This document shows positions 9,849 to 22,702 of a stretch of 28,642 bases of DNA, piece by piece. A model generated the notes under the pieces. It saw nothing but the letters and a program-made list of their open reading frames with translations. It had not been told where the DNA came from and ran no database searches. The stretch's first letter is position 1; each line of letters opens with the position of its first letter. Both the position numbers and the translations under genes were made by a program. This stretch comes from a virus. The stretch lies in IMG/VR virus record IMGVR_UViG_3300033146_007484, positions 1 to 28,642 of that record; one strand, written 5' to 3'.

Positions 9849-10300
9849 GTTAACTCCTTATATTTTCTCTTTATTTTTCCATGGTCAAACCCTGTAGCAA
9901 AGGCTATCTGTTTTATGGTGAAACCTGCTAGTGTCAGGTCCTCTATAATCAATCTCTCTACTATTGCTTTAGATATAGGTATCGGTATAGCTGTATAGTC
10001 ATCTGCTTTCTCTTCTATCTTTTTTATATCATTTAGTGCATAGACTGCATTGATAAAGCTTGATGAAAATTTGTGATTAGTATTTTTGGACGAGTAGAAA
10101 CTAGCATCTATAGCAGCTCTTATCTGTTTGGGTGTAAAGTTTGCTTTTTGTAGTATCAAAATTTTTAGCTTTTTAACTTGCTTCTTAGATACAGTTAATT
10201 TCGTATTACCATATCTAACTACAAACCTATAAGCTTTTAGTAGATCATTGTCAAAGAGTTCTCTTAAGGCTTCTCTATTTACCTCTAGCATAGTCACCAT
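9845..10300 (-). CDS. Hypothetical protein with C-terminal HTH-like helix pair
   Basis: A 151-aa, lysine-rich helical protein between the large terminase and the portal. The C-terminal 35 residues (LTLAGFTIKQIAFATGFDHG) have the spacing of a helix-turn-helix and could bind DNA. The start (ATG at 10300, or ATG three codons on at 10291) overlaps the terminase stop, with GGAGG close upstream. A role in packaging or in late-gene control is possible; the family is not recognised. Confidence 0.65.
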   Translation of the reverse strand: MVTMLEVNREALRELFDNDLLKAYRFVVRYGNTKLTVSKKQVKKLKILILQKANFTPKQIRAAIDASFYSSKNTNHKFSSSFINAVYALNDIKKIEEKADDYTAIPIPISKAIVERLIIEDLTLAGFTIKQIAFATGFDHGKIKRKYKELT

Positions 10301-11636
10301 GCACCTCCTACACTACTGCAAGGTAGAGTATCACCTATAGACTCAACTTCATCACTATCATAAGCCTCATCATCATAAATCATAGCGTTCATAGAGATAG
10401 CAAAGGCATCAGCATTGTCAGGAGAACGACCCAACTCTTTTTTGATATCCTTTTTGCTTATTAGTTGTTCTTTACCCCTATTTGAGATAAAGTATTTTTG
10501 AGCCATTAGTTCACCCACCAACTCATCATCATCAGGGATCTTCCCATCCTTTAGAGCCTCTTTAAGTAAAAAATACCATTCAGCTCTTTTGTTGAAGAAC
10601 CTCTATCCATACAAATAGATGGCAAACCACTACCAATACCAATGGCATCTACAAATATAACAAATGGTTTTCTAGTAGCTTTTTTATACTCATTAATCAG
10701 CCATCCACCAAGAGCTGTTAAATCTAGGTTGGATTTTTGTTTAAGTTGATAGAAGTGTTTACCCTTTCGTTTAACTAAAACATTCTTATCATCTCCAAAG
10801 TCAGCAACATCTAAAGCCCACACCTCAGCACCACTATCATCAAATACCTCTCTAGTGGTAGCCTCTTCTACCTCTTGTAGGGTAAATACTGCATCAGAGG
10901 ATTGTCTAGGGAACTCACCTTGCACTCTTACGCGGTAAACATCACTATCGAGTCCATATTGTCGTTTCTTTTCAGCTATCCACTTAGGAGATACATTCTC
11001 AGACTCTTCGGCATTGAATTGATAAACACTCCATTGCCAGCGGTTCTTATGATGTGAGTCATAAAAGTAACCATCCACACGAGTAGGGTTAGCAGTCATT
11101 ATGACTAAAGTATCTTCGCCTGTCATAGCACCCTCAGCCACTTCAAAAATGATTTGAGGAATACCACTAGCCTCATCAATCACAAAGCCAAGAGATGTTG
11201 CGTGAAATCCTTGCAGTGCTTCTGGTTGGTCAGCTCTAGCCGTTCTAGCTACTGCAAAGTTAGCATTTGTAAAGTTCACTCTCTTTGTTAAGACCTCTAC
11301 TTCATTTTTTAGTTGGAGTGGCAGGGCTTCTCTCCATTTTTTAATCTCAGGTATCAAGAGGTCATGCAGTTGTGGAGCAGTTGGAGCGGTCATAGGTATC
11401 TTAGCATCATCTTTGAACAAGCCCCACCAAAGGACTATCCAAGCTAGTAGAGTAGTTTTACCTGTACCGTGACCACTTCTTATAGATATCTTGCGTACAC
11501 CCTTATCAATGTCATCTACAACAACTTGCTGTTGTCTTGATGGTATAGCCTTTAACATTTGTCGTATAAAGAAGTCCAAAGAGTGTGCAGCGGCTTTGAG
11601 CAATAAGATATCTGTATTGTCTAGTTTAGCCATCAT
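10294..11636 (-). pseudogene. terL: Large terminase subunit, broken by a frameshift with a probable internal deletion
   Basis: The 5' part (11636 to the TAA at 10553-10551) encodes the ATPase: Walker A SGHGTGKT near residue 54, Walker B LGFVIDEASG near 150, the coupling segment MTANPTRVDGYFYDSH, and the start of the nuclease (WALDVADFGDDKN, then VIFVDAIGIGSGL). After GSGL the frame becomes nonsense and stops. In the -1 frame from about 10598 the typical C-terminus resumes (RFFNKRAEWYFLLKEALKDG, then DELVGELMA and SPDNADAFAISM) and runs to 10294. About 15-20 residues normally lying between GSGL and RFFNKRA also appear to be missing, so this looks like a deletion of some tens of bases out of frame. 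Packaging by this copy would fail unless the shift is an assembly error. Family identity is certain. Confidence 0.85.
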
Positions 11637-12484: not shown

Positions 12485-12503
12485 TTTAAACTCCTAAAGT
12501 AAA

Positions 12504-12533
12504 ACTCAAAAATTAATTTGAGTGATTTTTTTT
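12504..12533 (+). terminator. Rho-independent-like terminator, plus direction
   Basis: ACTCAAA and TTTGAGT form a 7-bp stem around AATTAA, followed by GATTTTTTTT. It reads as a terminator only in the plus direction, although all genes to its left are on the minus strand. A second, weaker hairpin (CTCTC/GAGAG, 12569-12585) followed by a T-run lies 35 bases further on in the same orientation. Confidence 0.55.
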
Positions 12534-12534
12534 G

Positions 12535-12568
12535 TTAAGATAAATAATCCAATAATTACTTATCTTAA
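12535..12568. promoter_or_regulatory. 9-bp dyad upstream of the late operon
   Basis: TTAAGATAA and TTATCTTAA are perfect inverted arms separated by 16 A/T-rich bases. It lies 50-85 bases upstream of the first late gene, where a late activator or repressor could act. The partial sequence AAGATAAATAA recurs at 12720-12730. Confidence 0.35.
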
Positions 12569-12632
12569 CTCTCTAGCCGTGAGAGCTAATTTTTTTAATG
12601 TAAAAATACTGTGCTAAGTATGCTTACCTAAT

Positions 12633-12791
12633 CTAGCCATAGTCAATATGTTTAAGTAATCTTCTCCTAAACATAAAGCTTTCTTCAATTATTATTTTTC
12701 TATTGTGGTATCTATAGTCAAGATAAATAAACATAGGAACAATAAAACATCTCATTAATGCGTTAAAAACATTTCTTCCACATTCAAACAA
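12633..12791 (-). CDS. Possible small ORF or gene remnant (52 aa from TTG)
   Basis: A minus-strand frame stays open from 12860 to the TAG at 12635-12633, 72 codons in A/T-rich DNA. A TTG at 12791 has AAAGG at good spacing, and the first ATG is at 12755 (MRCFIVPMFIYLDYRYHNRK). The translation has protein-like composition with a hydrophobic stretch and a basic C-terminus. It could be a small gene or the tail of a decayed one. No family is recognised. Confidence 0.3.
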   Translation of the reverse strand: MFECGRNVFNALMRCFIVPMFIYLDYRYHNRKIIIEESFMFRRRLLKHIDYG

Positions 12792-12836
12792 TTTATAACC
12801 TTTTAAAACTTGATTTTTTGGGTTGGGTTGGTGTGG

Positions 12837-12842
12837 TATAAT
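12837..12842 (+). promoter_or_regulatory. Candidate -10 box (TATAAT) before the nested inverted repeat
   Basis: A perfect TATAAT preceded by a TG-rich spacer lies 27 bases before the nested inverted repeat at 12869. The -35 region is a T-run without a clear TTGACA, as is common in Campylobacterota promoters. Confidence 0.35.
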
Positions 12843-12868
12843 ATATATAATTGCGAAAAAATATCAGG

Positions 12869-12955
12869 GGGTAGGGGTGCTTAATCCCAACCTCTCACTT
12901 ATCACACACACCTACTAAGTGGTATGATAAGTGGTACTACTAAGCATACCTACCC
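12869..12955. ncRNA. Nested inverted-repeat structure, possible structured RNA or origin element
   Basis: The outer arms are 12869-12883 and 12941-12955: 13 of 15 positions pair (GGGTAGG..TGCTTA with TAAGCA..CCTACCC). Inside is a perfect 9-bp stem, CACTTATCA (12896-12904) with TGATAAGTG (12925-12933). The two stems nest without conflict, so an RNA or extruded DNA arm of about 87 nt could form. It sits just after a TATAAT box. No known RNA family is recognised. Confidence 0.45.
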
Positions 12956-13166
12956 ACACACCCCACGCTATATAGGGGCTTGTGGCTATGGTGTGAGTCC
13001 TTAGATAGCACCAGTATCTACATAACGCTACACCTAAGCTATAATCTAAGTGATTAAGCGTGGCAATCCACACAAACTAAAACTGCATAAGCTTCTTGAA
13101 GCTCTCAAAGATACAAATCAAACAAGACTCTAAAGCATCAAACAAAGAGAGTTAAGAGCTAAAACT

Positions 13167-13296
13167 ATTTTAAACAGAGTGTTAAAGCTTCTAAATCATT
13201 TTTAAACAGAAGCCTAAATACTTAAAAATTAAACTAACTCAACTTAAATTTAAAGCTAAAACTTTTAAATACTAAAGCTTATTTTAAATAGAAGCC
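13167..13296. repeat. Three A/T-rich direct repeats (ATTTTAAA-C/T-AGA-AG)
   Basis: Copies begin at 13167, 13198 and 13281 (for example ATTTTAAATAGAAGCC at 13281-13296). The second has one extra T and the first ends in GAG instead of GAAG. AAAGCTT-like words recur between them. Iteron-like repeats in A/T-rich DNA can serve as protein-loading sites, but regular spacing is absent. Confidence 0.35.
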
Positions 13297-13472
13297 CTTT
13301 ATATACTTTATATATATGATATATCTCTACTCTCTGCTATTCTCTCACTTACGCTTATGTTTTAAAGAACTCTAGCACGGAAACGAATAGAGAGAAAGGG
13401 CAGAAAGGGGAACGAACATCTAACGGTCTAACTCTCGACCCCCAACCCCCTACTCTCTTATGTTGTAATTAT

Positions 13473-13559
13473 ATGATGTTTGGTGAGCTAAAATGTTGGT
13501 GGTTAAAAGTGCCTATTCTTGTATTGCTTATGTTTGTGAGTGGCTTGTGGTTTGCTTAG
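13473..13559 (+). CDS. Possible 28-aa single-pass membrane peptide
   Basis: An ORF starting with two ATGs encodes a short N-terminus (MMFGELKCWWLK) and one hydrophobic helix (VPILVLLMFVSGLWFA). It has no clear ribosome site, and a G/T-rich repeat overlaps its end. The composition resembles small phage membrane peptides, but chance cannot be excluded. Confidence 0.2.
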   Translation: MMFGELKCWWLKVPILVLLMFVSGLWFA

Positions 13560-13578
13560 TTTGTGGGTGGCTTGTGGT
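13533..13578. repeat. Two G/T-rich direct repeats, 27-bp period
   Basis: A 19-base unit (TTTGTGAGTGGCTTGTGGT) occurs at 13533-13551 and 13560-13578 with one mismatch (A/G). It stands out from the A/T-rich surroundings. Confidence 0.5.
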
Positions 13579-13600
13579 GACATTATTTTAAGGAGTTTAA

Positions 13601-13632
13601 GGGCTTAACCTTAAATGGGGCAGATTAAGCCC
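13601..13632 (-). terminator. Hairpin after the ArdC operon, possible terminator
   Basis: GGGCTTAA (13601-13608) and TTAAGCCC (13625-13632) form a perfect 8-bp inverted repeat 8 bases beyond the stop of the 67-aa minus-strand gene. An alternative GGGGC/GCCCC stem overlaps it. No strong U-run follows, so termination strength is uncertain. Confidence 0.4.
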
Positions 13633-13639
13633 CTAAATA

Positions 13640-13843: not shown

Positions 13844-13909
13844 AATATTATCCTTATTTAGTTATAATTTTGTGTTAGTTTGGAGAGGTTGCACTCTCTC
13901 CAAAACGGC

Positions 13910-14779
13910 TTAGGCTACTAACAACTCTTTAGCTGTTGCAATGTCATCTAAATATTTGAACGCTTTAGTGGCTTGTGCGGCTGCTCTCCATAAGTAAGTT
14001 TTATCATCTTTGAAGCTCTTTAACCAATCCTTGAGATACGCAGCGCTATTATTTTGCGTCGGTTCTGTATCTATGCCTAGTCTAGCCATTAGTAGAACAC
14101 TACCTATCTCAGCTACTAGCTCCTCAAATGCGTATGATTTGCTACTCTTACCACCGCTCATATCTCTATCTAATCTATCTTTGTGACCTGTAGAGTGTAT
14201 ATACTCGTGGCCAAGTGTACTATAATACTCTTCTGCACTCATGAAGCTATTTATAGTGGGTATGCCAATATAATCATCTGCATAGTATGCTACTGGTGCA
14301 GTCTTGACCTCTAAATGATCTAGCTTACTATAATATAGTTCTGCTTCTGCTATTGGGTCTATAACTGCCTCGGCTTGTGTTTCTGTTGCTTCTAGCGTGG
14401 TTTGTGCTACATTGAAAACAAGATATTTTTTAAGCATTGGGATAATTTTATATCCGCTCTCTTCATCTTCATCTTTTATTCTAAGTGGCTTGAAAAAAAA
14501 CACTGGTGAACTCTTCTCCCCTTTTTTGACTACACCACCTAAATCTTTACACTGTTTGAAAGTTAGCCACTCATTACTGTTATAACCCTCGTCCATTGCA
14601 ATCATCCATAAGTTGAACACATTCATACCGTTATACTCAGTATGTGTACTTATATTGTGTGGTATACCGTTAGCTATCGAAGTTTTAAACGGTTTAATCC
14701 AGCTCCCAGCTTCCTCTACCTTTTTAACTATATTATCTATTGTGTTGTTTAGTGCTTCTCTCATTTTTTCGTTTGCCAT
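13910..14779 (-). CDS. ardC: ArdC-like antirestriction protein with zincin domain
   Basis: A 289-aa protein. Residues 1-125 match the ArdC N-terminal ssDNA-binding domain (SWIKPF, then YNGMNVFNLWM, EWLTFKQCKDLGGVVKKGEK, and LVFNVAQT). The C-terminal part is the metallopeptidase-like MPTase domain with HEYIH at 191-195, the classic HExxH zinc motif, followed by GHKDRLDR and the third ligand region YAFEELVAEIGS (E219/E220). ArdC of plasmids binds ssDNA and blocks type I restriction. Here it would protect incoming phage DNA. It is transcribed away from the operator-leader region at 14843-15089. Family identity is strong; whether the peptidase is active is unknown. Confidence 0.85.
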   Translation of the reverse strand: MANEKMREALNNTIDNIVKKVEEAGSWIKPFKTSIANGIPHNISTHTEYNGMNVFNLWMIAMDEGYNSNEWLTFKQCKDLGGVVKKGEKSSPVFFFKPLRIKDEDEESGYKIIPMLKKYLVFNVAQTTLEATETQAEAVIDPIAEAELYYSKLDHLEVKTAPVAYYADDYIGIPTINSFMSAEEYYSTLGHEYIHSTGHKDRLDRDMSGGKSSKSYAFEELVAEIGSVLLMARLGIDTEPTQNNSAAYLKDWLKSFKDDKTYLWRAAAQATKAFKYLDDIATAKELLVA

Positions 14780-14842
14780 CTCTAAATCCTTATGTTTTGA
14801 TAATCGTATTATGGCATACTCTAACTTAAAATAATATTAAAG

Positions 14843-14908: not shown

Positions 14909-14937
14909 AATTAATAAAACTTTAAGCTTACTCATGC

Positions 14938-14943
14938 CATAAT
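14938..14943 (+). promoter_or_regulatory. Candidate -10 box for the plus-strand leader operon
   Basis: CATAAT matches a -10 box at five of six positions. It is placed so that transcription would start near 14950, immediately before the first leader hairpin and just downstream of the twin operators. No clear -35 box is seen. Confidence 0.35.
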
Positions 14944-14953
14944 GCTCTCAACA

Positions 14954-15089
14954 GAAAGTTTACGAGCTTTCATCCCTCCGAGTGAGAGGGAGCCTCCAAG
15001 GGTAGCCAATCCGCTTTGACCCTTGGAGGAGCCAATCAGGATCAGAATAAGTTTAGTTAAGCACTCTTTGAGTGTTTATAAAATTTATT
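14954..15089 (+). ncRNA. Structured leader: chain of four hairpins, copy 1 of a repeated element
   Basis: In order: GAAAG/CTTTC (14954-14971), TCCCTC/GAGGGA (14973-14991), an 11-bp perfect stem CCTCCAAGGGT/ACCCTTGGAGG (14993-15003 with 15019-15029), and AAGCACTC-TTT-GAGTGTTT (15059-15077, 8 bp with a G-U pair). The last is preceded by TAAGTTTAGTTAAGC and followed by ATAAAATTTATT, both repeated exactly in copy 2. The ribosome site (AAAGGG) and ATG follow. No known riboswitch was recognised. Confidence 0.6.
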
Positions 15090-15105
15090 ATTTAAAGGGT
15101 TTGAG

Positions 15106-15360
15106 ATGACACAAAATGAAATGATGATAGATACAAAAAGAGTTTTCGATATAGACTTTAGGAGCGATGTGTTTTTAAATCACTCTCCAAGTATGAATTA
15201 TGACAGGGTCAAGGATATAGTAATTTATGCAAATGAGCTACTAGTTGAAGAGCGTGGAGAAGTTAGGGAGTGGAATTTAGAAATGGATATAGAGAGTATT
15301 AGAACAACTACTCTTAAAATTTATCTATTAACCCTATTTTCTACAGAATTACATTACTAG
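15106..15360 (+). CDS. Hypothetical small protein behind a structured leader (84 aa)
   Basis: Starts MTQNEMMIDTKRVFDIDFRS and is acidic with helical segments. AAAGGG lies about 6 bases before the ATG, straight after leader copy 1. The end reads TTLKIYLLTLFSTELHY, a hydrophobic patch too short for a clear membrane span. It is the first gene of a short plus-strand operon with its own operators and promoter. Family is not recognised. Confidence 0.6.
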   Translation: MTQNEMMIDTKRVFDIDFRSDVFLNHSPSMNYDRVKDIVIYANELLVEERGEVREWNLEMDIESIRTTTLKIYLLTLFSTELHY

Positions 15361-15367
15361 AAAAATT

Positions 15368-15428
15368 AGAGCCTCCACGGCTCTTGTAAGTTTAGTTAAG
15401 CCCACAAGGTGGGTTTATAAAATTTATT
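15368..15428 (+). ncRNA. Leader element, copy 2, with covarying hairpin
   Basis: AGAGCC/GGCTCT (15368-15384, with a TCCAC loop) precedes the conserved block TAAGTTTAGTTAAGC (15387-15401). The second stem is AAGCCCAC-AAG-GTGGGTTT (15398-15416), then ATAAAATTTATT. Stem length (8 bp), loop length (3 nt) and flanks equal those of copy 1. Two base pairs in the stem differ between copies, and both differ by compensatory changes (A-T to C-G, T-A to A-T). Confidence 0.6.
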
Positions 15429-15441
15429 AAAAGGATATGAC

Positions 15442-15665
15442 ATGAAAACAGTTATATACACAAATAGAGGGACATCATTTCTTGAAAAAGATACAAAAAA
15501 ATAAAGTCTATAGATGTGACACTAGGTAGCTTTAGTCATTTTGGGAAAAAATACAATAAAATGATTAAAATTGAACATACTTATAAGATCAATGGATTAT
15601 GTCACGCTCATAATTATGGAGTTACGAGTGTTAGTGAGGGGATAAAAATTGTAGTTGATTATTAA
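15442..15665 (+). CDS. Small gene requiring a -1 frameshift at an A7 run (74 aa if shifted)
   Basis: From ATG 15442 (AAAAGGA upstream) translation gives MKTVIYTNRGTSFLEKDTKK and then TAA. The stop follows the heptamer A-AAA-AAA in the correct phase for a -1 slip (ACA AAA AAA TAA). Slipping back one base continues IKSIDVTLGSFSHFGKKYNK and runs to TAA at 15663-15665. The downstream frame has no start of its own near the junction. It may be a programmed frameshift gene, a decayed gene, or a sequencing error in the A-run. It follows leader copy 2. No family is recognised. Confidence 0.5.
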
Positions 15666-15694: not shown

Positions 15695-15886
15695 ATGAGA
15701 AAAGCAACACACAAGGAGGGGGCGGATTATCTAGGTCTAGCTCCTAAGACAATCGCAAACTGGCGAGATGCAAAAAAGCGGAGAGCCTTCTTAATAGGAG
15801 TAGCCGCTATCATAGACGATGAAAAAGCCAAAAGAGAGGCATATGAGGAGAGAAGAGCCAAAGAGGAAGCTACCAGTCAGGGATGA
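15695..15886 (+). CDS. Small HTH DNA-binding protein (63 aa)
   Basis: Starts MRKATHKEGADYLGLAPKTI, where residues 8-26 form a helix-turn-helix of the kind found in excisionase, CII-like and KilA-like small regulators (ADYLG-LAPKTIANWRDAKKR). The C-terminal half is a charged helix (KAKREAYEERRAKEE), suited for oligomerisation. A ribosome site (AAAGGAAC) precedes the ATG. As the last gene of the leader operon it could regulate its own operators at 14843-14908. Its end overlaps the convergent exported protein by 17 bases. Confidence 0.65.
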   Translation: MRKATHKEGADYLGLAPKTIANWRDAKKRRAFLIGVAAIIDDEKAKREAYEERRAKEEATSQG

Positions 15887-20445: not shown

Positions 20446-20517
20446 TACAATAAGCACTATTAGAGAAATGTTAATTTAGTGCATATTGTATTATTTATAT
20501 TGATACAATATGCATTA
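20446..20517. promoter_or_regulatory. Immunity operators: three copies of TACAATAWGCAYTA
   Basis: Site A TACAATAAGCACTA (20446-20459), site B as its reverse complement TAGTGCATATTGTA (20477-20490), and site C TACAATATGCATTA (20504-20517). They fill the region between the divergent Cro-like gene and the repressor, overlapping likely -10 boxes of both. Identical sites recur at 22602-22647. The repressor encoded at 20535 is the probable ligand. Confidence 0.7.
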
Positions 20518-20534
20518 GTTACGAAAGGTTAGTT

Positions 20535-22556: not shown

Positions 22557-22601
22557 AATAACCCCTTTTATATTTTAGATTACACATTTTAACATAAATA
22601 A

Positions 22602-22647
22602 TACAATATGCACTAAATTTAATAATATTTTAATAGTGCTTATTGTA
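22602..22647. promoter_or_regulatory. Remote pair of immunity-type operators
   Basis: TACAATATGCACTA (22602-22615) and, reversed, TAGTGCTTATTGTA (22634-22647). They are identical in sequence to sites B and A of the immunity region, and the facing arrangement (46 bp end to end against 45 bp) is the same. They lie between the divergent 190-aa and 57-aa genes. Confidence 0.7.
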
Positions 22648-22702
22648 TCATTCTATCAGAAGCCCAAAAAACTTCTAGGTTATTTAACATCAAAGGATAT
22701 TT

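Follow-up and report, generated by a model that had tools for sequence, protein, structure and literature searches.

A kinked hairpin repeated before small genes of a Campylobacterota phage and in mobile elements of the phylum: a candidate mRNA processing site

Two adjacent small genes of a phage related to those of the Campylobacterota are each preceded by the same kinked hairpin, and hairpins of the same build lie ahead of start codons in a related phage and in many genomes of that phylum. We read the element as an mRNA hairpin whose stem, of about 18 bp, is interrupted by a defect in its middle, situated in the gap between a stop codon (or in a 5' leader) and the next SD sequence. By analogy with the T7 early operon, we give close to an even chance to its being an intercistronic RNase III-type processing site, and the hairpin is probably an undescribed type of mRNA processing or control site. 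To our knowledge, post-transcriptional control in phages of the Campylobacterota has been little studied.

Results

The window, that is, the whole stretch of DNA analysed here, is the 28.6-kb (28,642 nt) IMG/VR virus record IMGVR_UViG_3300033146_007484. It is a tailed phage or prophage, with genes for a terminase, a portal, a major capsid protein, an S24 repressor and an integrase, and its terminase shares 65-73% identity with terminases of other Campylobacterota phages, some of them from MAGs of that phylum. One 107-kb MAG contig carries two window-related terminase genes (L043 and L044) and perhaps represents two related prophages. A small plus-strand unit at 14.93-15.89 kb lies between minus-strand genes and comprises, in this order, a promoter, a structured leader of 150 nt and three ORFs, the first of 84 aa, the second frame-broken and the third of 63 aa (Table 1); its transcript probably starts near 14950. 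Searches of viral contig and phage sequence sets returned no relatives of the 84-aa protein. Another irregular hairpin, of other sequence, was seen at 13871-13925 (-), between the ArdC-like gene and the next small gene.

Table 1. Features of the small plus-strand unit, with positions in the window
Feature	Position	Strand	Remarks
Probable promoter -10 region ATGCCATAAT of the small-gene unit	14934..14943	+	Motif common to the divergent promoter
Three further 5'-leader stems	14954-14971, 14973-14991, 14993-15029	+	RNA fold, z = -4.6 to -5.4
Copy 1, kinked hairpin	15046..15089	+	Lower stem 9 bp, internal loop AGU/UA, upper stem 9 bp, triloop UUU; model scores 67.4 bits (R1), 57.6 bits (R2)
84-aa ORF behind copy 1	15106..15360	+	No known family
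Short GC-rich hairpin AGAGCC..GGCTCT	15368..15384	+	Between the stop codon of the 84-aa ORF and copy 2
Copy 2, kinked hairpin	15385..15428	+	Lower stem 8 bp, internal loop AGU/UA, upper stem 9 bp, triloop AAG; model scores 67.0 bits (R1), 48.7 bits (R2)
ORF behind copy 2	15442..15665	+	Two frames (15442-15501, 15501-15665), break at a run of seven A
63-aa ORF, last gene of the unit	15695..15886	+	Weak helix-turn-helix match HTH_17, E 0.005, below cut-off

The two copies are 339 nt apart and have identical flanks, TAAGTTTAGTTAAGC on the 5' side and TTTATAAAATTTATTA on the 3' side; a preliminary description of this DNA had correctly reported the identity and had given the 3' flank with other letters. 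The tip geometry that it had described is also present, with a triloop and the same G.U pair kept in both copies and with two compensatory swaps (A-U to C-G and U-A to A-U), and the upper stem folds as 9 bp instead of the 8 bp first counted. That description had missed that the flanks pair with each other (UAAGUUU with AAAUUUA), and by folding each copy is a single hairpin of ~44 nt, in which two helical segments are arranged around an internal loop. The copies differ at seven positions, all in the tip, through two pairs changed on both sides and three changes in the triloop. The three further stems that had been noticed ahead of copy 1 are likewise present by folding, and z is -3.2 and -3.3 for the two leaders and -4.6 for the 150-nt leader. 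The short GC-rich hairpin next to copy 2 has a similar counterpart, GGGCTC..AGAGCC, directly ahead of the kinked hairpin of L055 (L199).

When seven random substitutions were placed in copy 1, all pairs were kept in 0.27% of trials, and all pairs together with at least two double changes in 0.04%. In a shuffle control on the two copies, 125/500 shuffles were as good, and the covariation from two sequences alone is therefore weak, suggestive and not proof. Selection at the RNA level, which had been claimed from the compensatory changes, is supported for a repeated element before small genes, and the covariation within the window does not establish it by itself.

A covariance model built from the two window copies (R1) was run over related phages and detected one more copy, in phage L024, whose terminase is 72% identical to that of the window. 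Behind this hairpin come GGAGG and the ATG of a gene for 65 aa that has no relation to the window genes; the lower stem has a different sequence with its pairing kept, and the base of the upper stem, TAAGC/GTTTA including the G.U pair, is the same as in the window. This copy was found by the model, so the kept bases are partly selected, the paired lower stem and the place before a gene less so. In a general scan covering 412 kb from related phages, the window copies and the L024 hairpin ranked first (15.4-16.7, against 11.2 for the next). Most phages sharing TerL at 65-73% identity had no copy in the DNA examined, and a search with the 65-aa L024 protein returned its own match only. Exact-pattern scans of viral contigs gave only chance matches in coding sequence for the window sequence and only its own record for the L024 tip. 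The degenerate triloop pattern AAGCNCNCTTTGNGNGTTT gave 73 matches, one of which had all features (L075, in the same Mu-like Helicobacter phage as L071), and the tip motif alone is therefore not diagnostic. At 12485-13639 the window has a non-coding stretch of about 1.15 kb in which short AT-rich repeats occur, and a like region occurs at ~660-910 of L024, just upstream of its hairpin; the window region may serve as an origin or in packaging, or may encode a long non-coding RNA.

Over 298 Campylobacterota genomes, R1 gave weak matches, of which L055, L056 and L071 stand directly before an SD and ATG in mobile elements; these are a conjugation gene that we read from its sequence as TrbJ-like (with no Pfam match) and two Mu-like prophages. 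A second model built from six sequences (R2) and run over 397 genomes gave many new matches, the higher-scoring ones being mostly strong hairpins ahead of start codons and most weak ones lying inside ORFs. Matches L207, L209 and L212 (32-35 bits, R2) are chance matches in coding sequence, and among the weak R1/R2 matches, L054, L057, L207, L209, L218-L221, L223 and L226-L228 were dropped as chance, all being inside ORFs. The check proposed in the preliminary description, a search for more copies with kept stems before small ORFs, was thus positive, both in L024 and in the model matches of Campylobacterota genomes.

The genes downstream of these hairpins are those of Mu-like phages, of filamentous phages and of conjugative elements, and those of a DEAD-box helicase operon. 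Small genes follow the hairpin at L202, L203, L214 and L256, in genomes that appear to be of Arcobacter type; putative filamentous-phage coat-like genes, judged by sequence and length and with no Pfam match, follow it at L217 and L234, and a VWA-like candidate, likewise by our reading, at L204. A DEAD-box helicase gene stands behind the hairpin in three species (L230, L274 and L292; Pfam DEAD, E 3.7e-17 for L230), and across them the place of the hairpin is kept and both of its sides have changed. Several elements carry more than one copy (L208a/b, L055/L229, three in G021), which repeats the pattern of the window, and in many loci the preceding stop codon is at, or overlaps, the base of the hairpin. 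The mid-stem defect varies by subgroup, as a 2x2 CA/GA loop, a single bulge, a 1x1 mismatch or a 3x2 loop. Further matches lie at gene ends with no start codon behind them (L211, L213, L281, L283, L231-L233), and in an order-level search with a third model, R3, a start followed 7/21 classified matches; the group therefore also includes gene-end hairpins without a following gene. A BLAST search with an Arcobacter-type copy against phage and plasmid records gave nothing credible.

Three of the gene-end hairpins, at 1673-1722 of L231, 1608-1657 of L232 and 3210-3259 of L233, are near-identical and come from one genome, with no start codon found behind them; each is preceded by a short hairpin, CCCTTCTAGGG, and the hairpin is perhaps a mobile repeat. 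At L229, a sub-threshold match to the Flavo-1 RNA (2652-2749; 38.4 bits, cut-off 42) lies directly 5' of the family hairpin.

We classified 72 R2 matches outside the training set, taking those at -16 kcal/mol or better as well folded (n = 30) and the others as poorly folded (n = 42). Well-folded matches are intergenic in 28/30 cases, and an SD and start codon follow within 50 nt on the same strand in 20/30, two of these being flagged as inside an ORF, and on the other strand in 0/30. The poorly folded matches include 11 intergenic ones, and an SD and start codon were found on the same strand in 3 and on the opposite strand in 2; the background rate for a random position is 7.5%. As a control, other strong intergenic hairpins in the same loci (n = 74) gave 14 sense and 6 antisense cases, at least two of the 14 being further copies of the element. 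Restricted to intergenic positions, the comparison is 18/28 against 14/74 (Fisher p = 2e-5), or 15/25 (p = 2e-4) with three matches removed for near-duplicates, and these p-values are optimistic, as the -16 threshold was set after the matches had been seen and the copies are in part from related species. Among the 30 tails, a single one has five or more T within 8 nt. The SD usually lies outside the hairpin and is mostly unpaired (mean 0.66).

In the alignment A5 (26 sequences), 80% of cells pair against 68.9% in shuffles, a level that 0/500 shuffles reach; there are 77 double-change cells against 33.9 in shuffles, and changes on both sides occur in 15/20 pairs. Slid controls were at most 67% paired. 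In A5, MAFFT places the upper arms of the window and L024 copies one column off, so that the pairing count is lowered and not raised; RNAalifold on its own recovered the upper stem only. Conservation is highest, though partial, in the pairs flanking the defect (AAGC/GUUU, in many cases including a G.U). With models that were enriched stepwise, position, strand and pairing are independent evidence and base conservation is not.

The preliminary description had tied the hairpin to twin operators and a frameshift gene in one riboregulatory system. A repeated RNA element before small genes is indeed present; the tie is not supported, since relatives of the hairpin are found where both features are missing, ahead of numerous unrelated genes and mostly in intercistronic positions. 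The twin motif itself is real and belongs to the divergent promoters at 14808-14830 (-) and 14921-14943 (+), of the ArdC-like gene and the small-gene unit, respectively, which have TTTAAG..ATGCCATAAT in common (TTTAAGNTNANTNATGCCATAAT in the minus-strand copy; ~0.04 matches expected by chance) and possibly share an activator site. Repeated palindromic half-sites, AATACAATATGCACTA, occur at 20451-20534 by the S24 repressor gene and at 22595-22660 before a second divergent gene pair, and are likely repressor operators. We rejected a frameshift mechanism: another Campylobacterota genome carries a homologue of the ORF behind copy 2 whose frame is open (L165 1501-1713; E 2.4e-6, 43% over 68 aa, no stop), and the large terminase subunit gene of the window (TerL, 10294-11636) is also split in frame, near 10600 (two tblastn segments in different frames). 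Because of these two findings, the frame break is more likely damage, that is, an indel, or an assembly error. The L165 homologue heads a small-gene operon with a divergent ORF upstream, and no such hairpin precedes it.

Discussion

The position, strand, structure, covariation and recurrence of the hairpin are consistent with a site at which mRNA would be processed. Host RNase III, a double-strand-specific endonuclease, would cut at the mid-stem defect and so separate the cistrons; the downstream gene would receive a short 5' end carrying its own ribosome-binding site, and a paired end would be left on the upstream message. In the window, three small genes might in this way be expressed separately from one transcript. 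Sites of the T7 R1.1 type have stems of ~18-22 bp with an internal loop or bulge between two helices, a build also found in the window copies, in L024 and in ~25 genome matches, and they lie in intercistronic gaps or leaders of polycistronic mRNA, as do the hairpins described here, with a stop codon at the base and an SD and start codon after it. Folded in the same manner as a control, the T7 gap before gene 1.3 is a kinked hairpin, followed by an SD and then by an ATG. We put RNase III processing first because of this likeness in gap anatomy and because RNase III of C. jejuni cleaves the T7 R1.1 substrate (PMC3839596). Points against it are that copy 1 and the L024 hairpin each belong to a long 5' leader instead of separating two genes, and that some model matches follow a gene end with no start behind, as listed above. 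RNase III sites have no defining sequence, and the conservation of AAGC/GUUU beside the defect could mean recognition by another factor.

That conservation also bears on translation control, in which the intact hairpin would be bound by a protein or small RNA, or would act as a barrier uncoupling downstream from upstream translation. A hairpin 5-30 nt ahead of the start codon, repeated before different small genes, would suit such a role, as would its likeness to SAS/ESAS of cluster K mycobacteriophages, which is also tied to gene starts and has inverted repeats, and whose function is unknown (PMC3203893). We nevertheless consider this unlikely, given that the SD is as a rule not part of the hairpin and is mostly unpaired, which rules out a plain ribosome-blocking hairpin, and that no gene or regulator common to the neighbourhoods of the copies was found. 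The resemblance of AAGCCC..GGGTTT to an intrinsic-terminator stem, together with the matches at gene ends, might point to a transcription attenuator or weak terminator between genes. An intrinsic terminator was rejected for the missing U tract, neither window copy received a terminator-like call on the plus strand, and a start codon follows two-thirds of the well-folded matches on the same strand and none on the opposite one, so that attenuation seems improbable. Very improbable, in our view, is a role of the sequence as DNA, as a palindromic repeat for recombination, transposition or cassette exchange. The copies at the two ends of the 84-aa gene and the three-copy gene-end hairpin in one genome (L231-L233) would fit such a repeat, but G.U pairs, which matter in RNA only, recur at the same place, the start codon behind a well-folded match is always on the same strand, and the hairpin of the DEAD-box helicase operon stays put as both of its sides change (L230, L274 and L292).

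A question of descent, compatible with any of these mechanisms, is whether the hairpins form one family at all. Phages may have converged on similar intergenic hairpins, only the window and L024 copies being truly related; the type of mid-stem defect differs between subgroups, and some A5 rows were retrieved with models that had earlier rows as training data, which makes the likeness in sequence partly selected. Against this, the models contain no start codon, yet the association with starts is strong and strand-specific. We regard convergence as doubtful, although it carries appreciable weight. Somewhat short of even, by our estimate, is the prospect of a phylum-wide, undescribed RNA element that would lie between stop codon and SD in phages (tailed, Mu-like and filamentous), in conjugative elements and in one or more host operons, and in which the defect would be recognised by a dedicated factor or by RNase III and would set the expression of the following gene.

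If the hairpin is a processing site, the T7 strategy, in which one transcript is cut at intergenic hairpins, would have spread through unrelated mobile-element classes of one phylum. The covariance model R3 can now find copies, and the hairpin before the host DEAD-box RNA helicase gene would tie the element to the RNA metabolism of the host and opens a simple way of testing it in the laboratory.

No description of such an element was found in Rfam or in the literature searched; the 4227 Rfam covariance models gave no match over the element in the window, L024, L021 or 12 further loci (E up to 0.5). Intrinsic terminators are also stable stem-loops at gene boundaries, of the AAGCCC..GGGTTT type, whereas the present hairpin has no U tract, a same-strand start behind it and a defect in mid-stem. 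SAS/ESAS resembles it as a short repeat placed immediately before the start sites of many small non-structural genes, and ESAS consists of imperfect 17-bp inverted repeats with a 4-13 bp spacer (PMC3203893). SAS, however, is a fixed 13-bp asymmetric start-site sequence, GGGATAGGAGCCC, which was not found in front of the window genes, where the SD motifs are of the ordinary kind, whereas the window element has no fixed start-site sequence and its stems covary. The RNase III sites of T7 (R1.1 and others), cutting at which matures T7 mRNA, share with it a kinked hairpin in a gap or leader, followed by an SD and start codon, and the presence of several differing copies per operon (PMC8708148). In contrast to the T7 sites, the hairpins described here, for which cleavage is a prediction, are AT-rich, have a conserved AAGC/GUUU by the defect and belong to mobile elements of the Campylobacterota.
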